Below, piece by piece: positions 1 through 57,146 of a stretch of DNA of 64,000 bases; the first letter of the stretch is position 1; each line of letters begins with the position of its first letter. The translations under genes and the position numbers were made by a program. Source of the stretch: Mesaphorura yosii. Its lineage: Eukaryota > Arthropoda > Collembola > Poduromorpha > Tullbergiidae. The stretch covers positions 1 to 64,000 of the forward strand of contig WIXG01000284.1 in assembly GCA_009869945.1 (NCBI GenBank). Reading direction: 5' to 3'. The notes under the pieces are model-generated. The model saw nothing but the letters and a program-made list of their open reading frames with translations, did no database searches and was not told where the DNA came from.

Positions 1-1986
1 GAATAATATTAATGTTACGAGAAAATAATACCTGGACGCGAGGGAAAGAATCCATCGTTTTCCTTTGCTTCTCTAGCAAGTGCCTGATTTTGAGATTGTG
101 TCTTCCTTTCTTCAAAAACAATGAAAGGAGTCTGGTCAGTCTGCTGAGGTCGAGTAGCAGAAGGCGCGAGAGGTTGAACAAGTGGAACTGAAATCGGATC
201 ACAAGTGACAAATGCCAACTACGAGGAGGAACTAGGAAAAACTAGCGAGAAATTACCAAAAAATACCTGGACGGGGACGCAAAAATCCATCATCATCCAT
301 TGCCTCTCTAGTAACTGCTTCATTTTGAGCTTGTGCCTCCCTTTCTTCAGATGCAATGGTAGAAGTCTGCTGAGGAGCAGCAGAAGCCATTAGGGATGAA
401 GCAGAAGGAACTGAAATAGGATCACAAGTGCTTACAACTAGCAAATACGGACGAGGAATTATGATAAAAATACCTGAATGTGGGTGACCAAATCCCTCAT
501 CGTCCTTTATCTCACTTGCAAGTACCTCATTTTGAGATTGTGCTTTCCTCTCCTCAGAACCAATGAAGGAAATCTGCTGAGGAGCAGCAGAAGGTGTAAG
601 CGGTTGGGCAACAGGAACTGAAACAGGGATAAGATCAAAAGTTTACAAGCAACTAAGAACGAGAAATTCTGAAAAAAATACCTGAACCTTGGCGAAAGCA
701 TCGGTCATCATTCTTTGCCTCTCTAGCAAGTGCTTCATTTTGAGATTGTGCATTTTCTTCTGCAGCAATGAAACGAGTCCGCTGAAGACTCTGAAGAGCA
801 GCAGAAGCCTTCAGGGGTCGAATAAATGGAGCTAAAATAGGATCACAAGTGCTTATGATCAACAAATGCGAGGAGAAATTTTGAGGAAAAGTACCCATTA
901 AGCGCTGCTTCTTCACAGGAACTGTCATTTGATACAACTCGTTCCATCGACTCGACACCCCACTAGAAAATTTTTCAACCACTGAGGCAGATTTCTTCCA
1001 AGTCACTTCAGAGAGATCTTGCTTCTTGTGTACGAAGTATTCAGCAAATTGTACGCACTTCTTCTTGAATTGCTCCCAATGTTCCTTCTGCTCCTTTAGT
1101 TTCAATTTTAATGTTGATTCCAACTTATTTAGATTTAATTGACGTTTCTTCAAAATTTCTTGCGACCGTTTAACTTCCTGCTTTAGTTGCGCAAACATCT
1201 GTCCTTCAGGACTTTCTTCAAAGACCGCATCATAAAACTCCTGTGACAAATAAAAAATGTTCTCAGAGTGCTTCATTTTATTAGTCATTTGCTTTAGACT
1301 TCTGACAGAATAGCACCGAGGCATGTTTAAATAAAATTATCTTACCTGGCGCCTTTGCATTAATATTGAAAATTGTCTTAACTTCTCTTCTCGCGCAGTC
1401 TTCAACTTGTCAATTAGCATGTGTTTCTTTGTTAGTCGTTCTTGCATTTCAGCCAATGTTGTCTCATTTTCCTGAATCTCCTTTTGAACACTAGAAAATT
1501 AAACGCGCACGGCTTAAAGCGGCTTAGCATGCTAGAATCAGCAATGCTGATCAATTGGTTGTTAGAATCGACAGCATATCTTACGAGTCTTTCTTGGATT
1601 TGATGGTTTGGTACTCTGCCTCCGATACTTGATGTTTTAAGCGCAAATCAGCAGCTTTCTTCCTTAACTCTTCATTTTGATCTTGAAGATTTTTTCTTAC
1701 CGAAGTCAGATCTGAAGATGGACAATTGGGTCAAGTTGGAATTCGAGCAAATTGAAAGACAATTACAAAGACCCATGAGTACGAGTTTATTGTAACTGAA
1801 ATGTGTCCACTTACGAGCAACAAAGTCTTCTTCAGCCAAAAGTTTCAGTTCTTTTTGTCGCTGCTCAGCATTAAAAGTTCCCAATGCAGTGTACATGGAG
1901 GAATCTCCAGATGAGTACGAAGGCCTCCCGAATCCGTTTGGATGAGAACTTGGAATGTTCTCTTTATTATTCTCACTGTCCTCCAT
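1..1986 (-). CDS. Coiled-coil protein with KEN motif and tandem repeated exons (3' end outside window)
   Basis: Exons read from splice motifs and phase: 1815-1986 (ATG), 1585-1711, 1346-1490, 895-1240, then repeat exons 682-831, 474-617, 267-410 and 32-187, continuing past the left edge. The N-terminus is hydrophilic and carries MEDSENNKENIPSS, which contains a KEN tripeptide at residues 8-10, the form used by APC/C degrons. The next four exons encode long charged heptad-like helices rich in K, E, Q and L with almost no prolines, so a coiled coil is likely. After the helices the protein becomes a chain of about 50-residue units (see the repeat entry). An in-frame upstream ATG at 2034 exists; I prefer 1986 because the stretch between looks like leader sequence. 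I do not recognise the family. A cell-cycle or centrosome role would be a guess based only on the KEN motif and coiled coil. Confidence 0.7.
32..831 (-). repeat. Tandem array of four duplicated phase 1-1 exons
   Basis: Four exons, 682-831 (150 bp), 474-617 (144 bp), 267-410 (144 bp) and 32-187 (156 bp), recur every 207-223 bp with their introns. Each begins after an intron end of the form TTGTGATCC(T/G)ATTT(C/T)AG or a close variant and ends in a CAG-type donor followed by GTA. Every length is a multiple of three and both borders are phase 1, so any copy can be skipped or added without a frameshift. The peptides share the order (V/A)P..., a Pro/Ala/Ser/Gln segment, E(E)xxAQSQNExxxRE, then DD/ND and an aromatic residue, then a basic G-containing end. 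The array may continue to the left of the window. Confidence 0.85.
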
Positions 1987-2948
1987 TTTGTCGATGCTGG
2001 TCAAATCAAAAGGAGTCAACAATCTTACACACAAGGCACTTTGTAAGTTCTGAAGTTCTTGGAAATTAACTTAAAACTTGTAGAAGAGTGTAGTACTGAT
2101 CGCACGAACGAGACTCCACAAAGTTATGCAAGCGACTGAAATGGAAATGGTGTAAACGTTTCTGGCAATCCAATCGTTGAGACGATGTAGAAACTCCAAA
2201 TTCATTGAAACTTGAGCGTGGAGAAATCCGATTGAAAATTCTGAAGAAAGCCGAACAATCCAAATCTGTGAGATCTCCCCACGAAATCTGTGTGTAAAAA
2301 ATTCGGCATGTAAAGTCGTTAAAATCACTTACGTTCGCATCAGCAGCGACACAAAAGCTTGTAGAGATGATTATGGTTAGCAATTATCAGGCTATCCCGG
2401 TTCTAGTAATTGATAAGCGATAATGAATGAATTGACGAAGACGGATCGAGCCTTTGTTCAAGTGACTTTTTAGTCACAAGCCTGGATTGGAGGTTGAACA
2501 ATCCACCTGACTTTTCAAAACATTTGGCACGTGGTGGATCGACTTAGTGACTGCTTGTAAATTAAAACTCGACCTAAACTTGTTTCTAATTAACTAAATT
2601 GAACCAGTAATTAATTCTAAGAACATAGAGTGAACGTATTGATTGGCATGTAATAGCATGGAACAGCAGACAAGACACCGACGTGTGGATTGGATTTAGT
2701 AAATAAGCAGCTTCTAATATCCGGCACGATAACATTGGATTGGGGTAAGTCATCTTACGACGATTTCTTATCTGTAATTACAATCACGATATACGAGTCC
2801 AACTCAAATTATGATGGATCCACTCTTTATTTGCACAATTTTTACCTTTACCTTAGTGGCTATGCCAGTGGCTTGGATTTCCAGACTTGGGCTAGTCTGA
2901 GGAAGCGACAATACCCGCCTCAGCTTCAGGCTGTGCCAGACTCGACTA
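1987..2948. other. Intergenic or 5' region between divergent genes
   Basis: This is the shared upstream region of the minus-strand coiled-coil gene and the plus-strand HAD gene. Short open frames are present on both strands, but none has convincing splice sites or recognisable protein character. It probably holds both promoters and 5' UTRs; no clear TATA box was seen. Confidence 0.5.
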
Positions 2949-6812: not shown

Positions 6813-8899
6813 ATCACCATTAACCATTAACTCATTAACCCAAATATCATCAACCCGACCGACCACGGGTTAATGTCATCTATTTCTTTTCGTGGAAGCG
6901 GAATTTTTCGGTAAGAGGAAAGAATGCAATACGCAATGAAAGTGCACAAAGTTCCGCCTCAATTGCTCCATGCCTGCCAAGGAGGTTAATGCGATGATCT
7001 GACAATTCATGCTGTGTCTCGGTCATTGTCACGCGCGACACGTTGTAATTCTCGATTACATGCAACATGAGAATCTTGACTTCATTCACTAAGAAACTGC
7101 AAAAGATTGTAATGTTAACAAATGCAATCAGACAGAAAACAAGCTATAATCTTTAAAGCGTCGTTCTTATTGGCATTCATATCTCTGAGAGAAATGTGAT
7201 TGATAGCTCAAAATAGCTTCTTATGGTGCCTAATTTAATAAGAACCCTTGTAGCACCGGTGTGTGAAGATGATTAATGATTTAATGATGATTCGGTCGAA
7301 CGTGCGAAGGATTCTCCATCAGATAAGTGTTCACTTCTGACGTTTGTATCAGTTTTGACAATCTATATTTGATTGACCTGACAAGTGAATCAGCATTCGG
7401 CATCTTCATCTTGTGTAAGTAACTCACAAGAGTCGGATTGTCAAGAGTAAGATTTCGCTACTTTATTCTCTGGCATCAAAATGGGAACCAATTCACCTGT
7501 TTAAAACAACAAGCACGGATCACAATAGATTATAATAGGAAAAAATAATATGTTACCCTAAGATTGAGCACCGTAAGCGCGATTGCATTCAGAAGGGACG
7601 AAAGGAGAGTTTACTCGGACATCCATTTATTACTTTCAACAATAAGATTTGCAGACTGCAACATTCAATATGAATATTTTTCTCATCTTGTAGTATATAA
7701 TATTTGATTTCGAAGATATTTATTGCACCGTAATTGTTTTATCGATTCCGCATATTCCTTTATAATTACTGACAGCACATTAATGCTATATAAATGTACG
7801 AATTGAATAGCACAGCACGTTGGAATCTGACTCTTGTTTGTGTCCGTCCTTCTGTCTGTTGTTGTCAATCTTCAAAGGTTTACAAACAATGGAATCGCCG
7901 AATTTTTGCCGAGTGATTCGAAGAAGCATCTTCAAATAAACGCATTTCGTATTGCGATGCCTTAAGTCTAAAAAATATTACCATTGCGATGGGATTGCGG
8001 TTTCCGTTGTCTTTTGGACACCTGCCGTATCGAAACAGCGCATGCAGCGGCTCGTGAACTCCCTCGCTCCGGGTTACTTGAACCAAACTTAATTAATTTC
8101 GAAATGCAATGCAAAGCAATGCAATGCAGGTTGCAAGTACGGGTTCCTTTATTTGGTTCGTTCACAATGGACAATCAACGGTGGACAGTGAGTAAGCTAT
8201 TATCTCTATCTTGTTACAACGCAAGAATAGACTCACACAAATTCTCAGATGTGATTCGCATCTGCATCTGAATGGCCATAAAAAGCCATCGACAGTCTCA
8301 GGTTGAACTTGAGCGTCTTCTGTGTTTTGTGGTGCAAAAAACCAATTATCTCCTCAACGCATGTCTTCGACAGTTCGGTCGAACTGCGAACCAGTGCAGT
8401 TGCATGCGGGTTAGAGGACTGACGACACTAACGAGGCTGAGAAGATCAGTTGATGGCTGCCTTGGCTTGTCTCAACTTTATCGGAACTACCGCATCACGC
8501 ACACGAATCACAATCAATCAAGGCACGCCAAAATATTTAGTACGTTTTTCCTCTGGTGCATGGTGTTGGTTGAGGTTCAAGAAATTGTGAACAGGACAAG
8601 ATATTTGAGACAAGCTGATGCACCGTCGTGAGGAACAAGAAACGCTGATGAGGCTACCGTGCAAGATAAATATTGACATTGCAGACCTGAACTGTGTAGC
8701 TAATTATGATCTCGATCCGTGGTGAAAAATTCAACCGAATACTTTTGAACAATTCGTGAGACTTCATTTACTACGAAAGATGGTCGCCACAAGTGAACTT
8801 GAAATGAGTTCGGTGTGAGTGCGGTACAGTTCGCAGTCTCATATTTCCTAGAACTTACGCGAGTGTCCAGTCCCGAATACACAGAAAAGGTCTGATACG
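6813..8899. other. Non-coding stretch
   Basis: Only short scattered open frames occur here. The longest, 119 aa at 8272-8631, has no domain, no signal peptide and an unusual composition, so I do not call it. A perfect palindrome, CAGTTCGGTCGAACTG, occurs near 8370. No RNA gene was recognised. Confidence 0.5.
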
Positions 8900-9840
8900 A
8901 TGGTGTTTTCTGTCCAATTTCTTGCGCCGATCCCCTACCTGTTGGTTCTTATTGGATTTAATGAAGTAAGTGACTTGTGACTTTCATGGAGATGTCTTTG
9001 TGCCCCAATTGGACACATAGACATGCCGTACTTCGTTGTTAGACGTTGATTTTAATCCAATTATCCACACAGGTGCACCTCCAGCAAACATTTATACGCT
9101 CCTGCAACGATCCACTCGTTCTGAATCACATAAACCTGTACTCGCACACTTATTGCGATCATGCGTGTGGTTTCACAACGAATCTGCCAACCACCTGCTC
9201 GCCTCAAGGTTTCTGCGTCTGTCCCTGTGATCCAACCGTAAGATTCCATGATTTACCTGGTTGAACCAAATCGCGAGATACTGCACCTGCCATGCCATCC
9301 CAAATTTTGGTTGAATTACAGCTTCCGCAGGCAACCTTCGCGACAGACATTTGCCCACAAGCCGGCGATATTCCCGACACGGATCCAAATGCAATGCCGA
9401 TGTGCCAAGCGCAGTGCGCAGCTCTTTGCCCAGGTGGTCAGGGTCAAATCTGTGGTGAGATTGCCATCACAAACGGAAAAATATGCACATGCATCTGTCC
9501 ACCGTCGGCATGCCCCGGCACTGTAGTCCCGACGGTTCCAACTACAACTCCAGCTCCGGTCCAGCAGACATTCGTGATTATTCCATGGCCGTTGCTGCTG
9601 AAGAAATTCCTGCTTTGGTTGAAGCTTGTCGCGACTAAACTCTACATTTTTGTCCTGCTTCTAGTGAGTTGGTTCCTGAAGTACTTGTACCTGAAATTCG
9701 TGTTTCTTGTACTGTACGAAGCATTTCTACTCATTTTGAGCAAGTTGATGCGCAGATTAGCGCGTGTACTAATGCCAGTGCTGAGGCAGATTTTTCAAGT
9801 TGTGGCTAATCATTTTGTACTGACAGATCCTGATAATTAA
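8900..9840 (+). CDS. Secreted or membrane protein with two tandem CS-alpha-beta-like Cys domains and hydrophobic tail
   Basis: Three exons, 8900-8965, 9073-9237 and 9331-9840, all in phase 0, give 246 aa. Exon 1 is a signal peptide (MVFSVQFLAPIPYLLVLIGF). Exon 2 is one Cys-rich domain with spacing C-x17-C-x3-C-x9-C-x5-C-x-C-x-C. Exon 3 opens with a second domain of the same plan (C...C-x3-C...C...C-x-C-x-C), so domain and exon borders agree. The CxxxC...CxC pattern is that of CS-alpha-beta peptides such as arthropod defensins. A Thr/Pro linker (VPTVPTTTPAPVQ) follows. The last 85 residues or so are very hydrophobic and aromatic with scattered Lys/Arg (WPLLLKKFLLWLKL and onward), enough for two or three membrane helices or a membrane-active amphipathic region. 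The function is not known; innate defence is an inference from the fold only. Confidence 0.8.
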
Positions 9841-10158: not shown

Positions 10159-13100
10159 CTAAACTAAATCTTTTAAAACGTGTTGATTGCTTCGTTGGAA
10201 TGACGAGAGGCCGGAGGTCAACTGCTTCTCCTCCAACTCCAGCTGATTTAGCTCATTGAGTTTCTTGATGGCACATTTTGCTGCGGCAGTCTTCGCATTC
10301 TTCTTATTTGTGCCGCAGCCATAAACATTATTCTCTAATCCTGGGACCCGAACCCTCATTATCGTCCAACCCAGTTCGTTAGTGGTGTTTCCAGAGACTC
10401 CTTCCGTTGGATCACTGAAAAATAAGAGCATAAAAAGTAATTATCGCCTCAGAAGTTGTCCGATTTACGTTTCACACGTACATGAATTTAATCTTTCCAG
10501 GAAATCGCTCGTACAATTCTCTTATTGGAGACAATGGAATGTCCTTCGTGAAGATATCTGTAAAGATGTTTATAAGTTATAGTTGATTACTCTCAAACGT
10601 CGAACTTAAATACTGAAAGTCGGTGCACTGCACGTAAGTAATTACCAATTTCATTCTTCATGAGTCTATAAAAGACCTTCCATACAGTGTCTAAAGACAT
10701 GCCACTGTCAATATACACGGCACCTGTCAGTGACTCGAATAAATCTCCCAAAATCTTAGGAACTTCCACATCTTCAGCAACGAGACATTCCATATCATTC
10801 AAAAGCTTGAACTGTAATGTTGCACAACTTTCATATCTCAAGCATCGTAATACGAATATTTCGAAGTGAAAGACTCTTACATGTCCTTGAACTTGGTAGC
10901 CGCATTGCTCCTGATACTCAACAAATTTGTCTATAGTATCCTGTAGCAATTTGGAGCTTGCCAACAAGTACTTATGAAAATCGTAACGAACGGTCAGGGA
11001 TCCGAAGGTCACATTGTTGACCAGAGCCGACTTCAAGTCTGTCAATTTTCCAGGCGTGTTCACCATTGGGTAAATGTGGTTTGTGACCAAAAAGTCTACA
11101 ATGCCACAAACGACAAACATGCTACACACAAGCGGAATCTGGGATGACATGAATTGGAAACGATAATTTACCCAGAATTGCATCTCCAAGGAACTCCAGT
11201 CGCTGAAACCCTCCTGTGGTCCTGTTTCCTTTAAAGCCAGGGTGAGTGAAGGCCTCAACCAGCAGCCATTGATTTTTGAACCTGGAAAAGGAAATTTCAG
11301 CTGTGCCTTTTACTCACATCTTGTGAAAAGAAAGAACTGCCAAATCTTACTTGTATTGCAATAATGTCTCCAAATCTTCTACAAGTGATGCCAGAATCTG
11401 TGTCTGAGTACTTTCTGGGTAGTTCAGGTTCACTGGTGGCGGCCTTCCGTAGGTTATTTTTTCACCGTTGGGTCCAGGGCCGCGAAGTCCAATCCACTCC
11501 ATGAATCTCATTGCACTATCCAGGCCACCGTGGAGAAAATATGCGCCTATGAGAGCTTCGACGGAGTCGGCAACACGTTTGTCGCCAAACTCGGAGTGGG
11601 TATAACATGTCCTCAGAGATGTTTTCTCAGCAGGAGCGTTAACTTTCGCCCATTCCAGCAAAGCATTTTCATCCATCTGGCCAACTTGCTCGACAGACAA
11701 TTGGGCAAAAGCTGAGAATGCGATGCCCAACGTGGAAGCAACCATTGAGATTTTGGGGTTGCAAATGTACCCGGGTGGAAGCCAACTATATTCAGGTTTG
11801 AAAACACCGCCACTCAGTATCTCGCCCAAGTCATTCATCTTGGCAAAGTAATACAAATGCGCGTTGGAAACCAATTTGTTCCTCAGGTTGGTCATCTGAC
11901 CTTCCTGCCACTCTGGATATGTTGTATAAATGAACTGTGAGACAAACAGCTTCAGCACAGAATCTCCAATAATTTCAAGGCGCTCCAAACTGACGCTATC
12001 GTTTGCCTTGGACAAGGTCAGTGCCTAAACGTCAGATACTGCCTTAATAAAAAGCTTCGGATGAATAATTTAATTCAGAGCTTGCCTCCATTATTGTGTG
12101 CGTGGATGGGCCGCTTTCTTTACTGAAGTCAGTAAGGCGATCAAGACTTTTGAAGTGCACTTGGTCAGTATTAATCATGGCTAAACGCAGTGAAATAACA
12201 TCATTTTAATTGTTCAACTACTCAAAGAAAGGTAATGTTATCACTTACAAATGCCTAGCATGGCTTGCTTCGATGGTGGTGGACTGTGCCCCGCAAAATA
12301 CCCTCGAACTTGGGCACGTTTCTTCTTCTCTCGTGCAAACTGAGTTACTTCTTCCCTCGTCGTTTGCATTGGGTGCTTGTACTCATAGTGGAATGCATCA
12401 ACATCTGAAAAGGCGGAAGAACTTTCGTACTGTGAACTGTGTAGACTGTATCGGGCTGGCTTTTCCTTTTGCCAGTTGCATACGCTCTGGTCACAAAATC
12501 GAGTCTTTCGATTGGGACTCATTCTTTTGGACAAGCAAACTGGTGAAAGCCAACATGAATTACCCAGAGTTACACCGAACACACCAACTAATTTCTCAAC
12601 TGTTCCCTCCTTTGACGCCTTTGAGGTTGAAAATGTCGCTGCCTCGGAATGGCCGGGCATGGGCACCTTCTCGTCTCTAAAGTTGTTAATTTCTAGAATT
12701 CACAAACTCCTTAGAACGGTGTAGGGAAGCTCAAACTATGATATCCTTATCAGCTTTAACTTACGCTCAGGTTGTTTCTCATCTGCAAAAGCAGCGTCCC
12801 AGGAAAAGTACTTCGCAACAGACTCTTTAATCTCACTACTCATGAGCAGTCGGAACATTCTATGAATGATAGAAGGCAGAAATTTTGCTTGCAGGTAGTA
12901 GGATGACGGAATTAGAGATAAATTGCAAAATTCTGGGAGCAGTCGAGGCAAAACCTTCGACTTTTCCTTTTTCTTTTGTGAGTCAAATTTTGAAGTCAAG
13001 AAGTTCAACTGGCTTCGTATTTGTTTACACTTGAGTAATGGCTGGTTTAAGTTGAATGGAGTGAGTCCATATTGTTGCTTGTAATATGCGCTATAGCTCT

Positions 13101-17713: not shown

Positions 17714-20700
17714 ACTTATAATTGTGGTGATTTGAACTTAGAGTATTGTGGATGCTTGCCGGCTACCTAATATCACACGTCAAATCACATTGCAACTTGG
17801 GCCCATACCAACGATTAAAATGCAAGATGGTATTGCATCATATTCAAATCGGCGAATCGATGTCAGCCGCACGACTTAACATCAGCAGCAGTCAAAACGT
17901 TTAAGCTGCCCAACTGCAGATTTTGAATTCGCGAAAACCAAAACATTGATCATCTGCCATTTGGGACACAACACGCTCACTCGTCTTTGTTTTAGCTATT
18001 TTCAGAAATCAAAATCACTGGCAGGAAATGCGAAGTCAATTAAATCAGAGGTTTCATTAAATGCTAAGAAATAAGAAATCGATGCTCATGAAGTGCACTG
18101 ATGAAGTGTCGATGACTGGATGACAACTAAAATACGAAAGCGTTGGCGTGGGTGCGGTGGACCATGAAATCTTAAATGTCGCATGGCCCCTAGCACTTGT
18201 GTTGATGCATAGTAAATTCCATTTGATAAATTGTCTTGAAAGGTAAATGCTGGAATGTAACTCATGGCATTTATCCAGTAAAACTTTGGGTAAGGTGGAT
18301 GGACGGACGCTTGCAAAGTTAGTGCCTTATCTAGAAGTATGAAGTGTGTATTTATAACGTCAACAGTTAATCCATTTCACTAAAAATTCTTACGAATTAT
18401 TTGCATCCTTAATGCCAAACGCTCATACCGGTGAAGCCGTTCTCTGACTTCCTGCACGGCACGGCTGCTCGTTTTTTTTACATCACAAAGAGTTGACTAT
18501 GATTACACAGAATAGATTACTAAGAGGCTTTGTAACAGCGTTTTGACCTCTTGATTCGCATCGCGGATGGTGAAAGCAGATGTTGAGATGCCACTCCCGG
18601 TCACACTTATGTCCATGAATCATTCCATACGCACATGAGCATGACGTTAGCATTTAACACGAATTGCTAGCAACAAATTGTTCGGTTGATGCATTTACTG
18701 CCCTGTGTTATTGATAGATAAGAGGCATCCGATGAATAATATCAATTTTATTTAGGCAGTCAAGTGTTGAGTCCAGGTTTTGGTTTGTTTCTAGTCAATG
18801 AACAAAGGATCTGGATTTCCTTTTGCATTGTCCGTATTTGCTAACCACGCGACAAACCGAGAGAGTGCAAAGAACGCATGACATTTGGTGGGTAAAAAAT
18901 AATCTATAGCACGAGGAAATTTTGAAGCTCGTAGAAAGTTGGGAAGAAAACTGATTCTGTGGATAGAATTTCAAGAATTAAGATTAAGATCTTGTCCATC
19001 AACAACGCAATGGTACCAGCTTCAACTGTAAGTGAACTCCGAGAAGGTTTGAACAAATCTACGAAGAATTTATTGCGAATTGAACTTTTCATGTACGAAG
19101 GTTGATATTTATAAATTAATTCCAGGAAACCGCAAACTTCGGCGTTCGTCTCAGGCTCAGGTGGGCAGAAATCTCGTTAGTTCGCTGGGTTGTTGAAGAT
19201 CAACTCAAACCAGCAGCTGCGGAATCCTTACCTTAATTTCTTACTGTGCGTACTGGAGCTATTGATAAGGTAAATTACACTGGGTTCTTTGAACTTAGAA
19301 ATGTCGATTGAAATCGCTGCTGACTACTGACCCAAGCATGTTGTCGGGTTCTTATTCTCAAATTCAACACAGCGCAATATGAAGATATCCTATGTGATTG
19401 GTTACAATTATGGGAGTTCATGCCATTTCATCAAGAAAGATAAGCCACCACAAACTTGTGATAATGTGTGGAAGACATTTATGTTTGAATTTTTCACTAT
19501 ACGTACCATAGCGGAGCTAGAGTTCGGAATAATGAAAAACCAGTAGTCGTAGTCAGTGCTCGGTGGAAGGAATAAAGTGATTTGCAGTGTCGTGGCAGAC
19601 CAGAAACGACTTGCATTATCGAATGGTTTGAGTCAACGCAAACGAATTATCGAACAGCGTGTATGGAATCGTAATTGCAATCGAGTGAGTCGAGTCTCAA
19701 ATACGGTGGCGCGTAAGAGGTTAACTTAATTATGAGTTGAACTCTGATTGGTAGTGGTTGGTGACTGGTGACAGCGACAAAGTGAGTTGGTTTAAGATTA
19801 TCCTTGGGCAAACCACAGGACCACTTCTTGTATGACATCAGATGACATTTCGAATAATGGTACCCGTGGCGTTCCAATTAATTTACGTAAGTAGTGATGG
19901 TCAAAGAAGTTTCCCCCAAACTTACATGGCATGGCAAAGAATTGACGAAAGTGCAGCATTGAGAGAGACACCAGAATTATCATGCACACGCAAATTAGAA
20001 TCGTATACGCACACGTGATAAACTTGTGAGATACAGATGCTTTAAATATCTCTTCATCCAACCCATAATTTCATTGCGTTCGAACGAGGATGACTGCTGA
20101 AAAGGACCGGTTTTTTCTGTGCATGCCTTGACCACTTGTCCGGAACAAGTTTTTGTTTCACTTGAAAATGTCATCTTTGTATTCTTCAAAACAGTAGTCA
20201 GATTTTTTCTGCAAAAAGTCCCACGTGGCCACGTTTCAGTTTCAACTAACAATTGCATTTGTTGCGTGCGATGTCAATTCCTGATTCCCGGTTTCCCATA
20301 TATTGTATATTCAAAATTCATGAAAGTTGTTCTTTGATTTATGACGGTCCAAGCTTTGTAGTCAAAGACGATATTTCCCATTCAAGCATATGCAACAACT
20401 TCCCATGCGAAGCCAGCGAATTGTATGAAGCAGTCACTGGATGATGGGAAACCATTTCCCACAATATCAAGCTATGGATATTCATATTCAGACTTCCTGA
20501 ACTCTTGGAGCAGAGTAAACGTGACGGCGTGGGCAATGTGAACAATCTGAAGGCTTTCTCCTTTTTGCTTGTTAGAACTATATTCATTTTATTGGCTAGA
20601 GTGACATCCCCTCGCATCACTGTCGCAATGGGCTGCCTTGATTTTAAATACTCCAAATTAATTCGTCTGTCAGCACTTTGACAGTTGACCTAAATATCAG

Positions 20701-26400: not shown

Positions 26401-27356
26401 TCGTCAAGTACAAGACTAGTTTCTATTCCTTCACGCTGCCCGTGTTCCTCGCAATGGCAATGGTAAGTGACATAATGCTGTAATGTAATGCTGTCAACAA
26501 GTGATATTTAGGTAGCACATAATTTCAATTAGGCACAGAGAATCTCAGGTGATATTGTAAGGACAGGGGACTCAAAATCTCGTAATTAAAAACCACCTTC
26601 GTCACGAGCAAAAAAATTGTAACAAGAATCAAGAGATTGTTGTGAAGGCTGAGCTAAGTTTATAAAAAAACAATGACTAGATGAGAGCATAAATTCTAGT
26701 TTGACAGAGATTTCCAGTTCTAATTACCTGATAACTATGCATAAGTTCAAGTTAAACGAGTTTTATTGTTACTTATTGAGCAAACGTTGCATTTACTAGC
26801 CTGTTAGCATGCTGAGGGATTTCCATAATTGCAAGGTGGTCATTGTCGTAATGCATGAGTATGAGTTTATGCTAATTTTGAGACTAGATTCTAACGAATA
26901 TTTTTTATATTGTCCGTAACAACTTTTTTTTCGTTTCTGCAGTCTGGAATTAAGGATCCTGAATTGAGACGCCAGGCGAGAACAGTCACTCTTGAGATGG
27001 GACACTTCTTCCAAATTCAAGATGATTACCTTGACTGCTTTGGCGATGAACAAGTGACTGGCAAGATTGGAACTGACATCCAAGATTGCAAATGCTCGTG
27101 GCTCTTCGTTCAAGCCCTCCAAGCAGCTACTCCAGAACAACGCGAGTTCCTGCTGGCAAATTATGGGCAAAACGACCAATCAAAAGTGGACGCTGTTAAG
27201 AAACTCTATCGCGAAATGGCATTGGAACAGAAATACAAGGACTTTGAAGATTCATCGTACAACACTATCTCAGAGCACATCATGCAAATGTCGCCCGGTC
27301 TTCCAAAATCCCTGTTTGTAGATATGATCAATAAGATTTACAAGCGCAGCTCGTAA
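23412..27356 (+). CDS. FPPS: Farnesyl pyrophosphate synthase, with alternative first exons
   Basis: Common exons 25520-25759, 25837-25933, 26103-26462 and 26943-27356 encode the enzyme that joins DMAPP and IPP to FPP in the mevalonate pathway. The first Asp-rich motif is DDIMD and the second DDYLD, 138 residues apart. FF at positions -5 and -4 before DDIMD is the type I eukaryotic chain-length signature for FPP. The first common exon can take an upstream coding exon 23412-23830 (ATG; phase 2; TNS-R-SIIASQKI), giving 509 aa with a Ser/Arg/Lys-rich leader lacking acidic residues, as in a mitochondrial presequence. Alternatively it takes a 5' exon ending at 24862, where splicing makes the ATG (370 aa, MSIIASQKI). 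Initiation at the internal ATG 25554 is also possible. Confidence 0.92.
24656..24692 (+). promoter_or_regulatory. Core promoter of short FPPS transcript (TATA + Inr)
   Basis: TATAAATG begins at 24656 and TCAGTC spans 24687-24692, putting the initiator A 33 bp downstream. Both the motifs and the spacing fit an arthropod TATA/Inr promoter. It would produce a roughly 174-bp 5' exon ending at 24862. Confidence 0.55.
24689..24862 (+). other. 5' exon of FPPS ending in AT| of a split start codon
   Basis: The exon ends CGAAAAT|GTAAGT. Joining to |GAGTATC at 25520 yields ATG AGT ATC. Unspliced, the same bases read ATG TAA, a start directly followed by a stop. A second candidate donor at 25442 (GAAAAT|GTGGGT) would do the same. 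Confidence 0.5.
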
Positions 27357-32376: not shown

Positions 32377-34180
32377 ATGGAATCGTGGCAATGGACAGCA
32401 CTTTTACTTTGCTGCTTCGGGTTCTTCAAGGAGTTGAGACCCTCCGAACCCTTTGTGACTAAGTACTTAATGCATTTCAAAGGATTCTCAAAGGAAACAG
32501 TGAGTAACAAGTAATATAGCAATTGAGTATTTCTGAATTCAGTTCACTTGAGCACGAGACCACGACCACGGTCTTGATTGTCATGATTGAATGTCCTTGA
32601 TTCAGATTGTCCATGTCGCGTATCCGATCTCAACGTACACGTACTTCACAGCTTTGCCAATCATGTTCCTAGTCACCGATTTCCTCCGGTATCGTCCAAT
32701 CATTATACTCGAAGGTGCTGCTTTCGTTGTAGTTTTTACCATGCTCATATGGACCAATGGACTAACTGCGCTCAAGGTATGCAACTGTTTCGAACTGATT
32801 ACAGTTTATTTGCTAAGTTTAACGCAGTTTCACTCTGTTCAACCTTACAGATAATAGAAGTATTTTACGGATTTGCCGGAGCTGCCGAAATAGCCTACCA
32901 CACGTACATGTACGCCAAAGTTGACAAGGTTCAATACAAGAAGGTCACTTCGTACACTTACGCCAGCGTCTTCGCCGGAAATTTTGTTGCTGCCATAATT
33001 TCTCAGTGTCTGGTGTCATTCGGGCTAATGGACTATCATCAGTTGCATTTCATATCATTGAGCGGTGCTGCAGTAGCTTTATTCATCGCGTTCTTCCTTC
33101 CACGTGTAGCACAGTCAGTATATTTTTATAGAAGCGAGCCGAAGATAGATCGCACAATTGCAAATGCGCCATTAGTAGTGACCAACGAAGGTGGAGATTT
33201 TGGTAACAATAATAGCCTTAAGAACGTCGTCTCAAGACCAAACCAAGACGCCACTACGAAATTGGCATTTGCTCAACGCGTGAGACAGGCGTATCCAGTC
33301 CTCTGGTTGGACTTCAAAAATGCGTACAACCTCAAAAATTCCAACGTTCTGAAGTGGAGCATTTGGTGGGCGATTGCGACGGCTGGCCATCTGCAAATTA
33401 CAAATTACTATCAAACCCTTTGGGAAGAAATTGAGTCCGGTGGCAAAATGTACAACGGGGCAGTCAGCGCTGTGCAATCAGCTTTAAGTAAAAACCTGAA
33501 ACATAAATTACTTGAGCAAACCAATTCTATTACTCATTAAAGAATGCAGTGTCAACATTTAATTCATTATTCTCTTATTACAGGTGCAGTTTTTGCATTC
33601 GGAGTCGGCCACATGAAGATCTCATGGACAAAATGGGGCGAGTCAATTCTCTGCTTTGTCTCAGTCCTGCAGGGTCTGGATTTAATTTGGTTTTCGCAGA
33701 CGACCAGTTTAATGACAGGATATGCTTTATTAATTGTGTATCGGACCCTTTATCAAATCCTGATCACTGTCGCAAGGTATTTTAACTTCCTGTGCTCAGC
33801 GAATGAATATCTGGTTAAAGATTTTTTGTCTTTGATGTTTATAAGTACTTTTAATTTGCAGTGCCGAAGTCGCTCATGGAATTGCAGAAGACAGCTACGG
33901 TCTCATTTTCGGAATCAATACATTCGTTGCTGTCTGTATCCAAACTCTGTTGACGTTGGTCATAAATGAAGAAGGTGGTCTGGCGCTTGATATTCGGCCC
34001 CAGTTTCTAGTTTACGGATGCTATTATGGAGGGCTTGGGATAGCCTTTCTGCTGGTGACTACTTTCACATACTGCAGAACAAGAGGTGCTGGTAGGGTGC
34101 CACGATTGGAAATGAAGACTGATGAGTCGTACAAACTTAATGGTGATGCAGAGACATGTAACAATGAGATTGTAACTTAG
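32377..34180 (+). CDS. SLC19-family vitamin (thiamine/folate) transporter
   Basis: Exons 32377-32499, 32606-32776, 32851-33487, 33584-33776 and 33862-34180 join in phase to 480 aa, the normal size for SLC19. The N-terminus has the family signature CCFGFFKELRPSEPFVTKYL, followed by YP(I/V)STYTYF and TDFLRYRP in TM2-3. About twelve hydrophobic segments are present, with a hydrophilic central loop (about residues 190-230), the YNGAV motif in the second half, and a polar cytoplasmic tail. The family carries thiamine or reduced folate across the plasma membrane, and sequence alone does not settle which. The ATG lies in the first exon directly before the family signature. AATAAA follows at 34345. 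Confidence 0.92.
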
Positions 34181-42290: not shown

Positions 42291-45200
42291 ATGAATATAA
42301 CGCTGAAGCAACCCCAGTCCCAATTGCTGGGAAGTATGCTCAGTGGCGGTGGGAGCAGACACGTTGTCCGAAAGCCAGCCCCGCAAGCCTCCGCAGGCAA
42401 ATGTAAGTAAAAATGGAGGATCTAGCTCGAAAGAGACTCCAAGTCTTGACACATAAACTGGACAACAATTCTTTCTATTATTTCGTTTTGCCAGTGATGC
42501 GTTTGAGATGTCGTTTCCGCCCCCTTCACGACAACTACCTCGTGAACGAAGAAATCACAGAAAAAGACAGTGACGTTGTCTTTCTTTGCTTGGACGGCCG
42601 TGTTCGTGCGCACAAGATCATTCTGGCATCGTGTTCAACCTTCTTCGCGAGTTTGTTTGAAGGACAGGTTCGTATTGCCGACTTTAGTGTTTTTGTGTGT
42701 ACAAAGGGGCAATTATATGAAACCAAGGTCAACTCTCGTCTCCTTTGTCATTTCAGCTGCCTGGTCTCATGAGCAATGTTCTGGTTCCGGACATTCCAGT
42801 GGTCATCGTGCGCAACATTCTATCCCTCGCGTACAAAGACAACGTCAATCTGACTCCACAGGAAATGAAAGATGCATCGCAATATCTAAAACTCTTCGGC
42901 TTCCCTTCCAAATTGTTTACGTACGACGGAAACCCTTTGCGAATAGCAGGAGCAGGGACTGTGCGAACAGTTCCAGTGAATGTACCCACCAACTCTGGTG
43001 TCGGTGGCTCGGGAGGGAAGGTCCGCATAGTCAACCAGATGGGAAAGCAGGTCAACATTGCTCCGAAGATTGGTCCAACTGGCGCCATCACAGTTACAGC
43101 TTCCAGTATTTATCGTGACGTGAAAGCAGCGCAGCAGCGACAACAACTAGCAGCCGCGGCACAAAGACAAAGAGTGGAGGCGGCGGAAGCTGAAGAAATG
43201 GAATACAAGTTTCAACTTCAGGGCTACGATCAGCAACCCCTGCAGCAAAAATTTCAACAAAGAATTGTGAATCCACAGATGCGAAAGCCTGGCGGCGATT
43301 TTCAGCGAATGACTGCTGGGACTCAGCAACAACAAAGAAAAACTTTTCCCGTTTCCAATCTCCGGCGCATAGCCCCAAAGCCAATGCCGGAAGCGGAACC
43401 ACAGCAGGACATGCAAGTTCAAATGGAGACCGACGATACCGGAGAAGATGAAGAGCAGGGAACAAACAAAGTGCCCACCGAAGCAGGTTAGATTTTAATT
43501 GCTCAATCATTTAATGTTACCGTTTGGGACGCCCAATTACTATTAATTAGAATTAAACTATTTACTTACGCAGAGAGGAGATTACTTGACGAATGGTTAA
43601 AGGATAAGTACACCGAAGAAAATTCACAATCATCTGCTGCCGCTGGTGATGTGTCTTCAGATGGCAACGAAGCAGTTTTTCAGAAGAATCAGTGTTCAAT
43701 TTGTAACATCGTGTTTGAATCAGCCGAAAAATGGAAATGGCACGAATCACGCCACGTCGGACTTGGACTCTTCAAATGTTCATATTGTGACGAATTGTTC
43801 AGCACCTCACGAAAAGTGTATCAACATGAAATGATGGAACACGGAGTGACTTCAGGCGTAGGAGCATCAGACTCTCCTTCAATTCCACCTGACTTTAAGA
43901 TTGTGCAAGGCCGCAAGCGAAAACCGGTTGAAGACGAATACGCCATAGTGAATCAAGGAGAAAGCAGCGATGGAGATCCACCTAAAATGACTCTGGTTAG
44001 AACCATTCATGGATCACACTACAGAAGGTTGCCGGGAACTGCGGGACCTGTCATCGCACGCACTAAGAAATATCTCGCGGCTGCTTCAGGTTCACCACAG
44101 CTTCAACAGAAATATGCTAAATACGCTAGTTTAGCTCGTAATTTCAAAGCTCGAAATCCTCTGATAGGGGTGGCCAAAACGGATGCGGAAGACTTGATTG
44201 AATCGCGAAAGGTCAAGCAGCTCCACTGGCTTTACGTGTGCTCTAAGTGCGAACATGCATCAGACTCCTCGGCGAAGGCTGAGTCTCACTACAACCGTTG
44301 CTACCCAGACAAAGAAGGCACCACGTTCGAATCCTGCGTTGTCAAATATCGGCAAGGATTCTTCGGAAAATACAAGTGCCCATTGTGCCCGAAGCGATAC
44401 ACGAGCATCGGCGGATTCACGATTCACTGTGGGCACATTCACAGTGACTACAGGAGAAAGTTTGCACACCGCCATGAAGACGATACAATTTCGTGCGTCA
44501 TATGCAAGAAGAAATGGAAGGATCCTGCAGAGTTCCAGGCTCATTTGTCCGACGACGGAGAATGCACTGGAACTCCAGTCTTTGGGTTGGAAGATGGCAC
44601 GTACAGCAGTGGCGAATGGATTGGCAATGGAATTCCGGGCGAGGATGCTCCACCCAAAATGAGCAGAATCAATTTGGGGACTCTTTCCAGAAGCACAAGG
44701 CTTGCAAATCGTATTCTGACCACCGCACAAGATGAGACATCGTTCCAGCCAGTAGATTGCCCAATTTGTGGCACCGCACAGGTACACAGCACAACACAAA
44801 CTTTTATCCCCGAAAATGCTAAAAGGTTGATTGAAATGTATTTGTGCTAAATCGAATTGCTTCTTTCAGATCCAAAAAATAGTCGACCATTTGCAATCCG
44901 AGCATGCTGACTTAAACGTTCAAGTACTGCGTGTTGCTGACACAACTCTTCGGTGTCAAAAGTGTTCTATTTCATTTGGGCTCAGCGACTTGCTTTCTCA
45001 TCAGACATCATGCACTGGATCCAAAGGTGAGCTTTACCCTTGTGTTTGATCATTCTGAAACTTGCTGACGACCTTTTGTTTTGCGCTTACAGAATTTAAC
45101 TTTACAAAGGGCGGAGGTGGAGCTGCAAAGCCTAGAACATCTGGACCAGCAGTTCCGTTGCCAATTCCAGAAGGAGTAGGCAATTCACCAATAGACACGA

Positions 45201-46827: not shown

Positions 46828-48206
46828 TTAGCGTGTCTGCAAGTGTAACTGCACAATTACGATCGTATAGGTCAAGGTCACTCCAACTACCTGAAATACA
46901 ACATACAATTATCAGCAATCATTGTCAGGCATTTAGTGCGAAGTGGCTACGCCGGCACCCGGCATTTATTTACTCACAGATCCCAAGAATCCATACGTCA
47001 TTGAAAACATGCTTCCTCCTTTCAGTGCAATCTGGCAGGAATTCATGTCCATTGTCAGCGCAGTCATGACCGACGCGCTTGGGTTTAGTGAGGGCGGGCT
47101 GAAAACCTTCTCAGGACTTCCCAGGACAGAGTCTTCACACGTCCTGGTCGAAACCCAATCGTAAAAGTCCCCTGCCTTGGCGTTGACCTCCGCACACAGC
47201 GTCAGAATGCTCCAAAGTGAGATGGAGCGCCAAATGAAAAGACACCACGCTGCCGCAGACTTGACTGGGCGTCTTCCGTCGTCTACGAAGAAGAATGAGC
47301 CCGCCCAAATCGGGTAGTACGAGATGGTCAGGACAACAATGGCCAGAAAAAGGAAGCCAAATCCCTCATTCATGATTTTGAAGAGCTTCTTGATCTTTGC
47401 ATAGTACCACAGAATCTGCGAATATTCGACCACGATCGGTGCCTCGCCGCCGCCGTTTACGACCGAGTCTTTGCCTTTGCACATGCTCAAGAAGTCGACG
47501 AGACAATGGCGCATGGCCAGCGGTCCAAGCAGCATAATAGACCATGAGACATATGTCGTTAAGTACGTCGGAAATCGAAGCAGGAAATGGAATAGAGTTT
47601 GGGCGGACCAAAGCGCGCCTGTGGCGCCTGGGAAGTAGGCTTGTTCGGCCTCCTTCGCGCAATAATTCATGTAAGTCATGAGATCGCAATTCGACTTTGC
47701 GAATCTCAGCAATTCTTGGCTGAAAAAGCCAAATACGCAAAGAAACACGACCAGTCCACTCAGAAGACGAATCTGCAGAAAGAATTAAATTAACTCATCA
47801 AGTCATATCAACTTTAAGAAGTGTGTTCTCGTTTCACCTTTCGCATCTGCCTTGCACGGCCTTCCTTACTGGCCGGAAACTGAATTTCGGCAAATTCATC
47901 AAAGAACACGCCAAGCTTCCTCGTTTTGAACCAGCTTGTGTACATGAAAAAAAATTGAAAAAAGGGGTACGTGCATTGTTCGGTTGTGGCAACAAGTCGA
48001 AAGACGTTTGAGCCAAGTTCTTGGCGTGACGTGGTGTAAATTCCAACGACCGTCTCATACAGAACGAATATTTGAACGATGGCACACAAAATCGTCTGGA
48101 TCCTGTTTCGTTTGATGGCGTTGACCGGACTCTGAAGAATAGGGCATGCCAGGGAGTAATACCCGAGATCATGCATATACTTGTAGTAGTTTCCGTAGTA
48201 CGACAT
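46828..48206 (-). CDS. Gustatory-receptor-family seven-TM chemoreceptor
   Basis: Exons 47838-48206, 46978-47772 and 46828-46890 are all phase 0 and give 408 aa, typical for arthropod Gr proteins. The N-terminus is cytoplasmic (MSYYGNYYKYMHDLGYYSL), followed by about seven hydrophobic segments, among them TILCAIVQIFVLYETVVGIY, LLSGLVVFLCVFGFF, LAIVVLTISYYPIWAGSFFF and the last one in exon 3. That last short exon encodes VVGVTLTYTIVIVQLHLQ and carries the hallmark TYxxxxxQ of the Gr superfamily. The short final exon holding TM7 after a phase-0 intron is the usual Gr gene layout. The ligand cannot be predicted. The start was chosen because MSYYG begins the family-like N-terminus; an in-frame ATG 8 codons upstream (48230) is less likely. 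Confidence 0.85.
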
Positions 48207-48775: not shown

Positions 48776-50170
48776 TTAAGCATGCGCGCCAAGCCTGCCA
48801 ATGACACCTTCTACCCAGCCAAATTCCGTGTCTACATCACTTTGTTCCATTCCTTGAGTCTGGTTTTCATTATCGTACGGTTCCATGGAATTGCTTTTCT
48901 CACACTGTTCTTCATTTCTGTCTTGGTATTGCCCTTCGCTGGAACTTTGGCCCCTTGTCTTTTCTTTCTCCTCCCATTCCCATTCATTTAAATTGAGCAG
49001 CTCGCGGAACAAATCGACCCGGCACTTGTCGCACCCGCAGGTGAAGTACCAGTAGTTGGCCAGGTACAGCTGCCGCTCCACGACCGGTTTCCAGGAAAGC
49101 ATGTACGAGAAGGTTAGCAACTCTCCAGCTTCAATCCGTCGAGCAGCGAAGAATTTCACCTCAAAGAACTTCTGATCGTACGCCGAACCGCTGCGTGGGT
49201 GAAACATCCAAATCACGTCCATGTTGGGATCACAGTTGTGAGCAATGTAGGAGGCGGCGTGGAAAATGAGTGAGGCGTGCCTGTGCAGGCGAAAAAGTAC
49301 AGTTAACCTGATCGTGGTCAGTACGGCAGTATGCGTAGGGCCAAACATCTGATCTTGCAGATTTTTCAGGGAAAGTTAAACAGGAGCCAAGGTTAATGTA
49401 GGATAAGAGCAAGAACAGAAGCACACAACGCTGATCAAGTATGATAACGAGATTTGAGCTGCGTACCTGTGATAATCATTCATCATGCAGAAAGAGTTTA
49501 TAGCAATAATGCCCATAACACGTTCAATCAAGTCAGATTCGTACACTGCCCTTAGGTGACATCGGTTTTGGATAAAATCGATGACGTATTCACGACATTC
49601 TTTCGTTTTGGCGTCAGATTGTCTCCGACTTACGTGTGATTCATGTCTTAAGAGTTTGTTCCATTTCTTCGGCTCTCGCTCGCGTAACAGAAGACAGCGG
49701 AGAGTTTCGAGTGCGGGATAGTCGAAGGTGAGATTGTTCGGGCGAATTTGGTGTTTTGTGAAGAGTTCGCACTCAAATTGTGAATGAATGAAGGCCTGAG
49801 CAATGGAGAATGTTAGCAGCCATCAACAGTCAAGCAAAAATTACCCACTCCTTACCTTCTCGCAAATGCGATCGCAAACTGGCCACCCGCATCGAGAACA
49901 GACTGATTTCGGAGAACACGTCTTGTAGCAGCCCAGACAGACTCTAGGTTCCTTCGGATCCGCTGGATTGTACTCCCAATCGATCCGCGGTGATATCATG
50001 AGCGGGTTCTCTTCACAGATCTGCTCGCCAGGTTCAATGGTCCGTGCGGCGACGACGTAGATGCCAAACTGGTCATTGCACTTGATGAGTCCTGGTCCGG
50101 GGAATGTGTTGATCTCTTCTTCTTCAGCATTCTGGTCATTGTCTTGTACTGCTTGTTCAATACCTTCCAT
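48776..50170 (-). CDS. SMYD-type SET/MYND protein
   Basis: Exons 49856-50170, 49467-49795 and 48776-49280 join in phase to 382 aa. An upstream in-frame ATG at 50221 would add 17 aa. The split SET domain begins FGIYVVAARTIEPGEQI (about 36-51). A MYND zinc finger lies at 78-103 (CLGCYKTC...CSRCGWPVC). The second SET part has HNCDPNMD (229-236), GELLTFSY, and the post-SET CGCDKC. The family methylates histone or other lysines, and arthropods carry an expanded SmydA group. The canonical NHSCxPN core is HNCDPN here. The C-terminal 55 residues are Glu/Gln/Ser-rich and disordered in place of the helical TPR-like domain of SMYD1-3, which fits the arthropod-specific branch. Activity is not proven. Confidence 0.87.
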
Positions 50171-52829: not shown

Positions 52830-54929
52830 ATGCTTGCTGAAATCGTCGTGCTCGTGTTCACATTCCCCGTCGCGTACTTTTTGTACCTCAAGTACAAATT
52901 CAGGAACTTTCCACCAGGTGGGTGTCACCATTCCTTTCATTGACTACGTGGTCGTAGTATAGTGTGTAAGCTGAATTATGCGAAACACGTGTCTAGGTCC
53001 ATGGGGAGTTCCACTGATGGGATACTTGCCGTATTTGGGACCGACTCCGCATCGGAAGTACAGTGAACTGGCAGCAAAATACGGAAATGTGTTCAGTGTC
53101 ACGTTTGGAAACCTGCCGTAAGTCAACAGCAGAGCTCGTGCCAAATCATATAGTTGTCTGCTGCGTGTATTTCTCATATGACCCCGTCTTTTTAGCGTCG
53201 TCGTACTCAATGACTATGAAATCATCAGGAAAGCTCTGAGATCCGATGCCTTCTCCGGACGACCAAACAAAGCTGTACTGGCGATGGCCATGATAAAAGA
53301 AGGTTGCCAATCACAAACTTTAAGACTACTAATTAGTTAGTACTCTACTAACCAAGTTCCGGGTCGGTCAGGGTGCCGAATACTTGAAGATTGTGCTAGT
53401 ACCGCGTTCGATTTACAGGACTGAGCTTCAATGAAGGCCAGGTGTGGGTTGATCAGCGGAGATTCACGCTCAAAGTGCTGAAGGATCTGGGATTCGGCAA
53501 AAGTTCACTCGAAGGCTCAGTTCAGGAGGAACTTCACCGACTGGTTGGGTACTTGAAGTAAGAAATGTTTGTGTGTGAAATGTAAGCCGAGTTTGATGAA
53601 ATGGTTACAACTGCCTTATTTGGTTGCGGCACACAGAACGCAAGTTGACAAACCCGTCAACCTGAAGTACGTGTTCGAGATTTCGGTCATGAACACGCTG
53701 TGGTTGATTACTGCTGGAGAATCACATGCGTACGACGACCCGATTGCACTTCGCTGGCATAAATTGGCGTACGAGTAAGTGACCGACACACCGTTCAAGC
53801 TGAGGTCACGCCGTCGGGAGAGAAAAAAAATAATACAGCATTTCATTGCCATTACAGAGGTTTCATTGAACCGGAAGTTGCTGGCCCCGTCTGGTTTATG
53901 CCCTGGCTTGCGAAAATTGCACCTGACCGCACTGGGTTCACGAATCTTGTAGCTTCCGTGAAGAACCTTCGTAATGAATTTCGGCAGTTTGTCATGCACC
54001 GTGAAGAATCGCCAAATCAGGTACCCATGGACTTTATCGACTTTTACCTGCAAGAAATTCGGGAAACGACAGATCCTGCCTCAAGTTTTTATAAAGACAC
54101 GGGAAGTAAGTCCGCAGAGCAGGCGAAAAAAAACTTGCTCTTGACGTTTCTAGTTAAGACCTTTACATATAGAAAATGATAACGGTTTACAGCTTGCCTC
54201 TTTGTATTTGGCAGTTAAAAATTTAGTTGACTTGCTGATCAACCTGTTCTCGGCTGGTTCGGACACGACAAGTGCCACACTTGGATGGGGCTTTTTGTAC
54301 CTACTCAAGTACCCGGAAATTTATCGGAAATGGAAACAGGAACTGACCAGAGTTTGTGGCCCCGGGAATTTCCCGACGCTGGCCGATAAACCAAAGTATT
54401 AGTTAAATACGCATCGTTTCATTCTATTTGGTTTCGCATTTGGCATTTGTCAAGTTCGTAACATGACTTCTGGTCTTCCTTTTGTAGCCTTCCCTACACC
54501 GAAGCCACAATTCACGAACTCCTTCGCATCACGTCTATTACGTCCGGAGCTTTGCTGCACAGCACAACTGAAGCCATCCAATTCGAGTCGTTCGACTTGC
54601 CCAAAGGAACCATCGTTTTGCCCAACCTGTTCCATTGCCAACACGATGAGAAGTACTGGGGCGATCCGGAAGAATTCAGACCTGAACGGTGGCTCTCGGA
54701 TGGAGTTTTCAAGAAGGATGAACATTCCATCCCATTTTCAGTGGGAAAACGGATTTGTCCAGCAGAACATTTGGCATTGCTGAATCTTTTCATCATTTTC
54801 ACGGGGCTCATCCAGACGTTTGACTTTACGGCGTATGATGGCGAGCCGCTTCCCAGCTTGGACCCGAAACCGGGTCTCGTGTTGCATCCACAACCGTACA
54901 AGATGGTTCTGAAACTGAGGAAGCACTGA
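52830..54929 (+). CDS. Cytochrome P450 (CYP2 clan), copy 1
   Basis: Eight exons, 52830-52917, 52997-53117, 53196-53302, 53419-53557, 53637-53774, 53858-54105, 54215-54395 and 54488-54929, join in phase to 487 aa. An N-terminal membrane anchor is followed by FPPGPWGVPLMGYLP. Helix C is WVDQRRF with KVLKDLGFG, the CYP2-clan form. The I-helix oxygen-activation motif is AGSDTT (294-299), ExxR is ELLR (351-354), then PERW. The heme-binding loop is PFSVGKRICPAE with Cys431; the Gly usually two after the Cys is Ala. This is an ER membrane monooxygenase needing P450 reductase. The substrate is unknown: hormone, xenobiotic and lipid roles all fit. AATAAA is at 54952. It forms a head-to-tail pair with the next gene. 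Confidence 0.94.
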
Positions 54930-55213: not shown

Positions 55214-57146
55214 ATGTTAGCCGAGGCGTGTGTATTCGTTCTCGTCTTCACGCTCGCGTACTTTCTTCATACGCGTAGAAAATTTAAGTCTTTTCCACCT
55301 GGACCATGGGGCCTACCCATCGTGGGCTACTTGCCATTCATGGGCTCGAGTCCACACACGAAATACGCAACGCTGGGCAAAAGGTACGGCAAGATTTTCA
55401 GCGTCACGTTTGGGAGCTTGCCGTAAGTGCCTTCAACAGACTCACCTTAAAACCACCTTGGGTCATTTCCCCCATATTTACACACAGAATTGTGGTATTA
55501 AACGACTTGGATCTGATTCGCAAGGCATTCAAGCAAGACGTGTTTCAAGGCAGACCAAAATCCGTACTCGCAATGAGCATTGTTAACGATGGTAGTGTTT
55601 CGTGGTCTTGTAAATATAATTATATCTTCAGTGACAATTTCTAACGATTCTCTTGCGAACTTGTGATTCGAATTCAGGCATTACATTCAACGAAGGTAAG
55701 CCGTGGTTTGAGCAGCGCAGGTTCACCCTGAAAGTGCTTCGGGATTTGGGATTTGGGAAAACATCTCTCGAGAGCTCGCTGCATGAAGAGGTGCAAGGCC
55801 TCATCAATTATTTCAGGTAATTCAAGATACAACAATTTGATTCCAGGTTTAGCTTCAGGACAAGACTTTGGCATGGTTCGGTTTGATCAATTGCAGGACA
55901 CAAGTGAACAGACCGATCAGCCTGAAGCACACTCTTGAGATTGCCGTAATTAATACGCTGTGGTACATCGTCTGCAGCAAAAAGTACTCCCTGGATGACC
56001 CGGAAGCAATTTATATTCATAAGCTGTGCTATGAGTAGGCCAATATTGCATTCATTGGTTTTGTGTTTTGTCACTTAGTCTTCGGTCAAGTCAAAGATTT
56101 TCTTGCACAGAGGCTTCATTGAGCCCGAAGTCGCTGGTCCGTTGTGGTTCATGCCCTGGCTCGCGAAACTGGCACCAAATTGGACTGGTTTGAACGCTCT
56201 TATTCGTGCCACAGATGAGACTTGCGCTCTTTTCCGGAGAATGGTCAACGAAAGGCGCAAGACGTGGAAACCGACTGAACTCCACGATTTCGTGGATGCG
56301 TACTTGCTGGAAATTGAAAATACAAAGGACCCAAACTCAAGTTTCTACAAGGAAGAAGGAAGCAAGTTGACAACAAGCTTTCGCTGTAAATCAAAGTATC
56401 TAAGTCCTGTTGTAGAATGATAGTTTCTGTTTCTTTAGTGAAGAACCTTGTTTGTGTGCTGTCGGACTTGTTCACGGCCGGGTCGGATACAACCAGCTCC
56501 ACATTGTCCTGGGCCATTCTGTATATGCTCCACTATCCTGAAGTGTTGGCTAAAGTGAGAGCCGAGATCGACAATGTTGTTGGCAGGAATCAATTGCCGA
56601 GCACGGAAGATCGAGCCAGGTGAGAGCAAAATGCCAAAATCTTTCCTCCTTTCTGCTGGACAAGTCTGAACTGAACATTGACTGGGCCATTGCCATTTTT
56701 ACAGGCTTCCATACACTGAAGCCACAATCCACGAAGTATTTCGAATGTCATCCATCGTTTGCGGTGCGCTTCTTCACAGTACGCTCGAAAACACACACTT
56801 TGAAGGCTACTACCTCCCCAAAGGCACGATCACCATGGCTAACCTGTATCATGTTCACCATGATCCACAGTACTGGGGCGACCCGGAGAATTTCCGACCA
56901 GAACGGTTTCTCGACGCTGAAGGACGCTTTTCCAAAGACGAGGCTCTTGTCCCGTTTTGTGCTGGCAAGCGAATCTGCCCTGCTGAACAACTGGGCACTA
57001 CAAACGTCTACCTCTTTTTTACGGGATTGGTTCAAAACTTTGATTTCACTGCTGAGTTTCCGTTGCCCAGTGTGGATGCGAAGCCTGGACTCGTGCTGGC
57101 GACTCAAGGCTACAAAGTGGTACTGACAGACAGAAAGGCCGAGTGA
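55214..57146 (+). CDS. Cytochrome P450 (CYP2 clan), copy 2
   Basis: Seven exons, 55214-55422, 55488-55591, 55678-55816, 55897-56034, 56111-56361, 56439-56619 and 56705-57146, join in phase to 487 aa, exactly the length of copy 1. Exon lengths are the same or within 3 bp in every region. The first exon equals exons 1 and 2 of copy 1 joined (88+121 = 209 bp), so one intron was lost here or gained there. Motifs: FEQRRF, AGSDTT, EVFR for ExxR, PERF, and FCAGKRICPAE with Cys432. The fifth donor is GC (GGAA|GCAAGT) where copy 1 has GGAA|GTAAGT. The catalytic motifs are complete, so the gene should be active. A recent tandem duplication is likely. Confidence 0.94.

Follow-up and report, generated by a model that had tools for sequence, protein, structure and literature searches.

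Tandem defensin domains are already in print for plants and fungi, as are hydrophobic extensions for big defensins. The plant bi-domain defensin MtDef5 has domains that are 84% identical and a net charge of +16 (PMC5700942), the fungal Bizyarsin likewise has two domains of the cysteine-stabilised alpha-beta (CS-alpha-beta) kind in one precursor (PMC5234102), and big defensins have a Cys-rich domain of the beta-defensin kind with a hydrophobic region joined on its N-terminal side (PMC6805989, PMC3182236). A survey of collembolan antimicrobial peptides found defensins in 1 of 5 species, with the motif C-x5-6-C-x3-C-x9-10-C-x7-C-x-C (PMC10051947). Here we describe a gene at 8900-9840 on the plus strand of a 64,000-nucleotide window of contig C284 of the collembolan Mesaphorura yosii (all window coordinates are 1-based). 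Along its protein a signal peptide is followed by a 7-Cys domain, a 9-Cys domain, a Thr/Pro linker and a hydrophobic tail bearing Lys and Arg.

The pairing of two putative CS-alpha-beta-type domains in one precursor is shared with MtDef5 and Bizyarsin, and the joining of a Cys-rich part to a hydrophobic one is shared with big defensins. Unlike those of MtDef5, the two domains have no detectable mutual similarity, are acidic, and are followed by the stalk-like linker and the hydrophobic tail. As compared to the defensins of Sminthurus viridis (PMC10051947), domain 1 has 16 residues in place of 5-6 between its first and second cysteines and five in place of seven between its fourth and fifth. 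As compared to invertebrate CS-alpha-beta defensins in general (Sminthurus viridis; insect lucifensin, PDB 2lld), the protein has a seventh and further cysteines, acidic charge, two domains, a stalk, a tail, and no sequence match. The stalk-plus-tail architecture was not found in a partial look at the open-licence literature, mostly at titles and the openings of abstracts, which does not prove its absence.

A three-exon gene and its paralogue

The gene, as read from the sequence, has three exons encoding 249 amino acids, and both introns are GT-AG and in phase 0 (Table 1). The open reading frame 9265-9840 runs unbroken through Cys domain 2, linker and tail, so the tail is reached without a change of frame. 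The signal peptide has a hydropathy (KD19) of 1.99 at residues 2-20. A protein search of the whole genome (93.0 Mb, 1127 contigs) revealed a second locus on contig C708, with E values of 2.3e-20 and 2.0e-10 for two exons; the lone stop in the shorter match sits past the splice donor, inside an intron. This paralogue encodes 256 amino acids in three exons, with intron phases and exon layout as in the window gene. Across 227 aligned codons, identity between the two proteins is 40% (45% in the domain 1 region and 59% in the domain 2 region), with 16/16 cysteines aligned and the order of stalk and then tail kept. Against composition shuffles the paralogous domains scored z 23.5 and 23.1, and z 12.8 and 13.6 when the cysteines were held fixed. 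Synonymous sites were saturated (pS 0.79) and pN was 0.42 overall, a difference given here without a significance test. The signal peptide, two Cys domains, Thr/Pro linker and hydrophobic tail described in an earlier note on this DNA were thus all found both in the gene model and in the paralogue, and the architecture of two domains, stalk and tail is real and conserved. Judged by the paralogue similarity, the aligned cysteines and the domain z scores, the gene belongs to an old, constrained two-gene family.

The tally in the genome itself was two gene copies and a stray copy of exon 1. Own-genome searches that used the paralogue or single domains as queries turned up no third copy of the family; these counts are lower bounds, as very diverged members may escape. 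For bacterial relatives, one scan of a separate contig set (genome_contigs) using the alignment of domain 2 gave 41 pattern matches, none of them confirmed, and for viral relatives one scan of viral contigs using the full alignment gave 23, again with none confirmed. The stray exon lies on contig C484, where 175 bases of the window (8812-8986, comprising the 5' flank, exon 1, the donor and the start of intron 1) recur at 20485-20660 on the minus strand with 94% identity; in the genome search with the protein, this copy matched query residues 1-24 at 92%. It lies on the strand opposite to an OATP-family transporter gene, beyond the last frame read of that gene, and no Cys-domain match was found beside it on the contig.

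Cysteine domains and tail

The earlier note had given both domains the same CxxxC...CxCxC layout, and this held for the spacing of the cysteines but not for the sequence around them. The layout C x14-18 C x3 C .. C .. CxCxC, which was defined after seeing the data, occurred in shuffles at frequencies of 0.0001 for domain 1 and 0.00245 for domain 2 (20,000 shuffles each). The framework C1..C2x3C3..C4..C5x1C6, following the definition of the CS-alpha-beta cystine framework in PMC5234102, is present in all four domain sequences of the two genes. A second domain similar to the first, as in MtDef5, was not found: four comparisons between domains 1 and 2 stayed at shuffle level (z -0.4 to 0.4), as did the three of them repeated with the cysteines fixed (z -1.0 to -0.5), and on this ground a recent origin of domain 2 by copying of domain 1 was rejected. 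Exon 2 sits between two introns of phase 0, so the two domains may have arisen by exon shuffling or by a very old duplication.

Structure models of both domains gave a helix/strand order that would suit a CS-alpha-beta fold. In domain 2 the predicted helix carries CxxxCxxxC and is followed by two strands, the second bearing CxCxC; the domain 1 model gave four CS-alpha-beta structural matches. The models did not display disulfide geometry. Of what the earlier note had expected from structure prediction, the models showed the helix/strand order but not the disulfides. Its interpretation is partly supported: the architecture is confirmed, and the CS-alpha-beta fold is weakly supported.

Membrane segments have a hydropathy threshold of about 1.6. 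Peaks over 19 residues in the window tail were 2.18 (residues 174-192), 2.05 (199-217) and 1.39 (226-244), and in the paralogue tail 1.90 (171-189), 1.21 (190-208) and 2.78 (209-227). Both genes thus combine a signal peptide with tail segments of membrane type by hydropathy, and it is in terms of hydropathy that the putative membrane-inserting tail of the earlier note was borne out in both copies. The tails scored 37.0 against each other, compared to a shuffle mean of 36.7, and linker and tail together gave z 4.2 (3/1000 shuffles), which indicates that composition and order were kept and sequence was not.

Proposed membrane tethering and competing explanations

We read the gene as encoding a membrane-tethered tandem CS-alpha-beta-like surface protein, most likely a surface-tethered binding or adhesion module, and give this reading about an even chance. 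The protein would enter the secretory pathway, and its outer part would consist of two small disulfide-rich modules of the CS-alpha-beta type. The Thr/Pro stalk, probably O-glycosylated, would keep the modules away from the membrane, in which the helical, hydrophobic, Lys/Arg-bearing tail would hold the protein, and the tethered modules may bind a ligand, a microbe or matrix. The acidity of both Cys domains, in the window copy and the paralogue alike, makes binding or adhesion likelier than membrane lysis by a free peptide. For each domain we infer a pairing of C1-C4, C2-C5 and C3-C6. In domain 2 the third helix cysteine could further pair with the third cysteine of CxCxC, giving a three-rung helix-strand ladder in which helix cysteines i, i+4 and i+8 face strand cysteines j, j+2 and j+4, and the spare cysteine of domain 1 could form an interdomain disulfide with the last one of domain 2. 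All 16 cysteines (7 + 9) would then be used. The complete picture of a surface-tethered tandem protein with three-rung ladder, interdomain disulfide and mucin-like stalk, acting as a fixed receptor or trap, is held tentatively and is unlikely to be right in every part.

Several results weigh against the CS-alpha-beta part of this reading. No Pfam family matched the window protein or either domain up to E 10, and the paralogue gave sub-cut-off matches only (New_glue, E 0.54; Glycoprotein, 4.2; DUF4293, 7.3). PF01097 run over the M. yosii genome gave six sub-cut-off places, none at either gene; sequence searches of the PDB returned no row or a single meaningless one (E 0.41; E 7.4); and a comparison of profiles against five defensins lent it no support either. 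The search method was not blind to defensins, since it detected the C-terminal domain of another M. yosii gene, on contig C703, which matched PF00304 (E 0.00011) and, more weakly, PF01097 (E 0.0059), neither match reaching the cut-off of its family, and by phmmer matched MGD-1 (E 2.5e-4) and other defensins. Neither gene encodes a small cationic mature peptide: the precursors have 249 and 256 residues, and net charges (K/R/D/E) are -2 and -4 for domains 1 and 2 of the window gene (domain 2 taken as residues 78-141) and -5 and -4 for those of the paralogue. According to PMC5234102, antibacterial defensins are usually cationic, and more than 70% of the fungal defensin-like peptides in that study are neutral or negative. 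The looser CS-alpha-beta framework, C1..C2x3C3..C4..C5x1C6, moreover, arises in 1-5% of shuffles (0.011 for domain 1, 0.053 for domain 2). These points, together with the extra cysteines, would suit a disulfide module that is undescribed and CS-alpha-beta-like in spacing alone, within an ordinary lineage-specific Cys-rich membrane glycoprotein. The helix/strand order in both models and the structural matches of domain 1 speak against such a module, and we consider it a possible but rather unlikely explanation.

Cathelicidins have a conserved Cys-containing part, unrelated to the Cys domains of the window gene, and a variable cationic C-terminal part. In a precursor of that kind, the acidic Cys-rich part would hold in check a cationic, hydrophobic tail that evolves fast, until cleavage by a protease released this tail as a membrane-active peptide. 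Such a design fits the opposed charges in both copies (Cys parts summing to -6 in the window gene and -9 in the paralogue, tails +8 and +6), the conservation of the Cys part and not of the tail, and a strongly amphipathic cationic stretch at about residues 208-240 of the window copy, with a moment of up to 0.83 at 216-233. The paralogue tail, however, lacks such a stretch (its moment reaches 0.41 at most among the segments listed) and, like an anchor, is very hydrophobic, no processing site was identified, and the window tail is far more hydrophobic than that of cathelicidins; we think a precursor improbable. A matrix protein secreted for a structural or adhesive role, as in cuticle or glue, with a tail that self-assembles outside the cell without spanning a membrane, seems about equally improbable: the Thr-rich linker and the very weak New_glue match of the paralogue would agree with it, but that match covers the Thr-rich tract and its edge, and hydropathy peaks of 2.0-2.8 are of membrane-segment size. 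An erroneous gene model, in which tail and Cys domains were put together by chance, deserves mention as the model was read from sequence alone and the two signal-peptide exons have no mutual resemblance beyond hydrophobicity (z -0.7). It is highly improbable: in each copy Cys domain 2 runs on into the tail in one unbroken frame, stops number 13/11 and 4/4 in the two alternative frames of the tails, and a chance frame or mis-joined tail was rejected given the equal layout of the paralogue. If both the fold and the anchoring assumed in the surface-protein reading are true, this would be a case in which CS-alpha-beta modules that once acted as free effectors became fixed at the surface, and with its extended cysteine ladder a very old fold would have been elaborated in a new way.

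Neighbouring genes and a second candidate

The window is an ordinary animal gene neighbourhood (Table 1). Two minus-strand frames at 10593-12024 each hold an RNase III domain, the first with a sub-cut-off Dicer dsRBD in addition (E 0.048); this Dicer-like gene, probably longer at both ends, stands tail to tail with the 8900-9840 gene. Adjacent cytochrome P450 C-terminal pieces lie on one strand at 54462-54929 and 56682-57146. At E 0.001, Pfam gave nothing for the frames 42721-43491 and 46966-47784.

Table 1. Coordinates of the parts of the 8900-9840 gene and of other genes in the window
Feature	Position	Strand	Remarks
Exon 1, signal peptide	8900..8965	+	22 codons; phase-0 donor GTAAGT
Intron 1	8966..9072	+	107 bases, GT-AG, phase 0; position and phase match the paralogue model
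Exon 2, Cys domain 1	9073..9237	+	Cys domain 1 entirely inside this exon
Cys domain 1	9103-9228 (first to last Cys)	+	7 Cys, spacing 16-3-9-5-1-1
Intron 2	9238..9321	+	84 bases, GT-AG, phase 0; position and phase match the paralogue model
Exon 3	9322..9840	+	Cys domain 2, linker, tail, stop
Cys domain 2	9352-9513 (first to last Cys)	+	9 Cys, spacing 16-3-3-7-10-1-1-4
Thr/Pro-rich, mucin-like linker	9514..9567	+	longer and richer in Thr in the paralogue
Hydrophobic Leu/aromatic tail with Lys/Arg	9568..9837	+	net charge about +8; one modelled helix 9586-9816
Polyprenyl synthetase piece	26895-27356		Pfam
Reduced folate carrier piece	32587-33540		Pfam
C2H2 zinc-finger protein piece	43492-44850		Pfam
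SET-domain protein piece	48776-49375		Pfam
CPEB-type RNA-binding protein piece	57886-59061		Pfam
Galactosyltransferase piece	61672-62709		Pfam

The gene on contig C703 (positions 1-2000, minus strand, frame 32-568) has a single match in its own genome, namely itself. Its C-terminal domain has the spacing C-x5-C-x3-C-x9-C-x7-C-x-C, which fits the collembolan defensin motif as given in PMC10051947. Upstream of it, another CxxxC...CxC region can be seen by eye, which has a long, hydrophobic loop rich in Gly, and the gene perhaps encodes another two-domain CS-alpha-beta-like protein.
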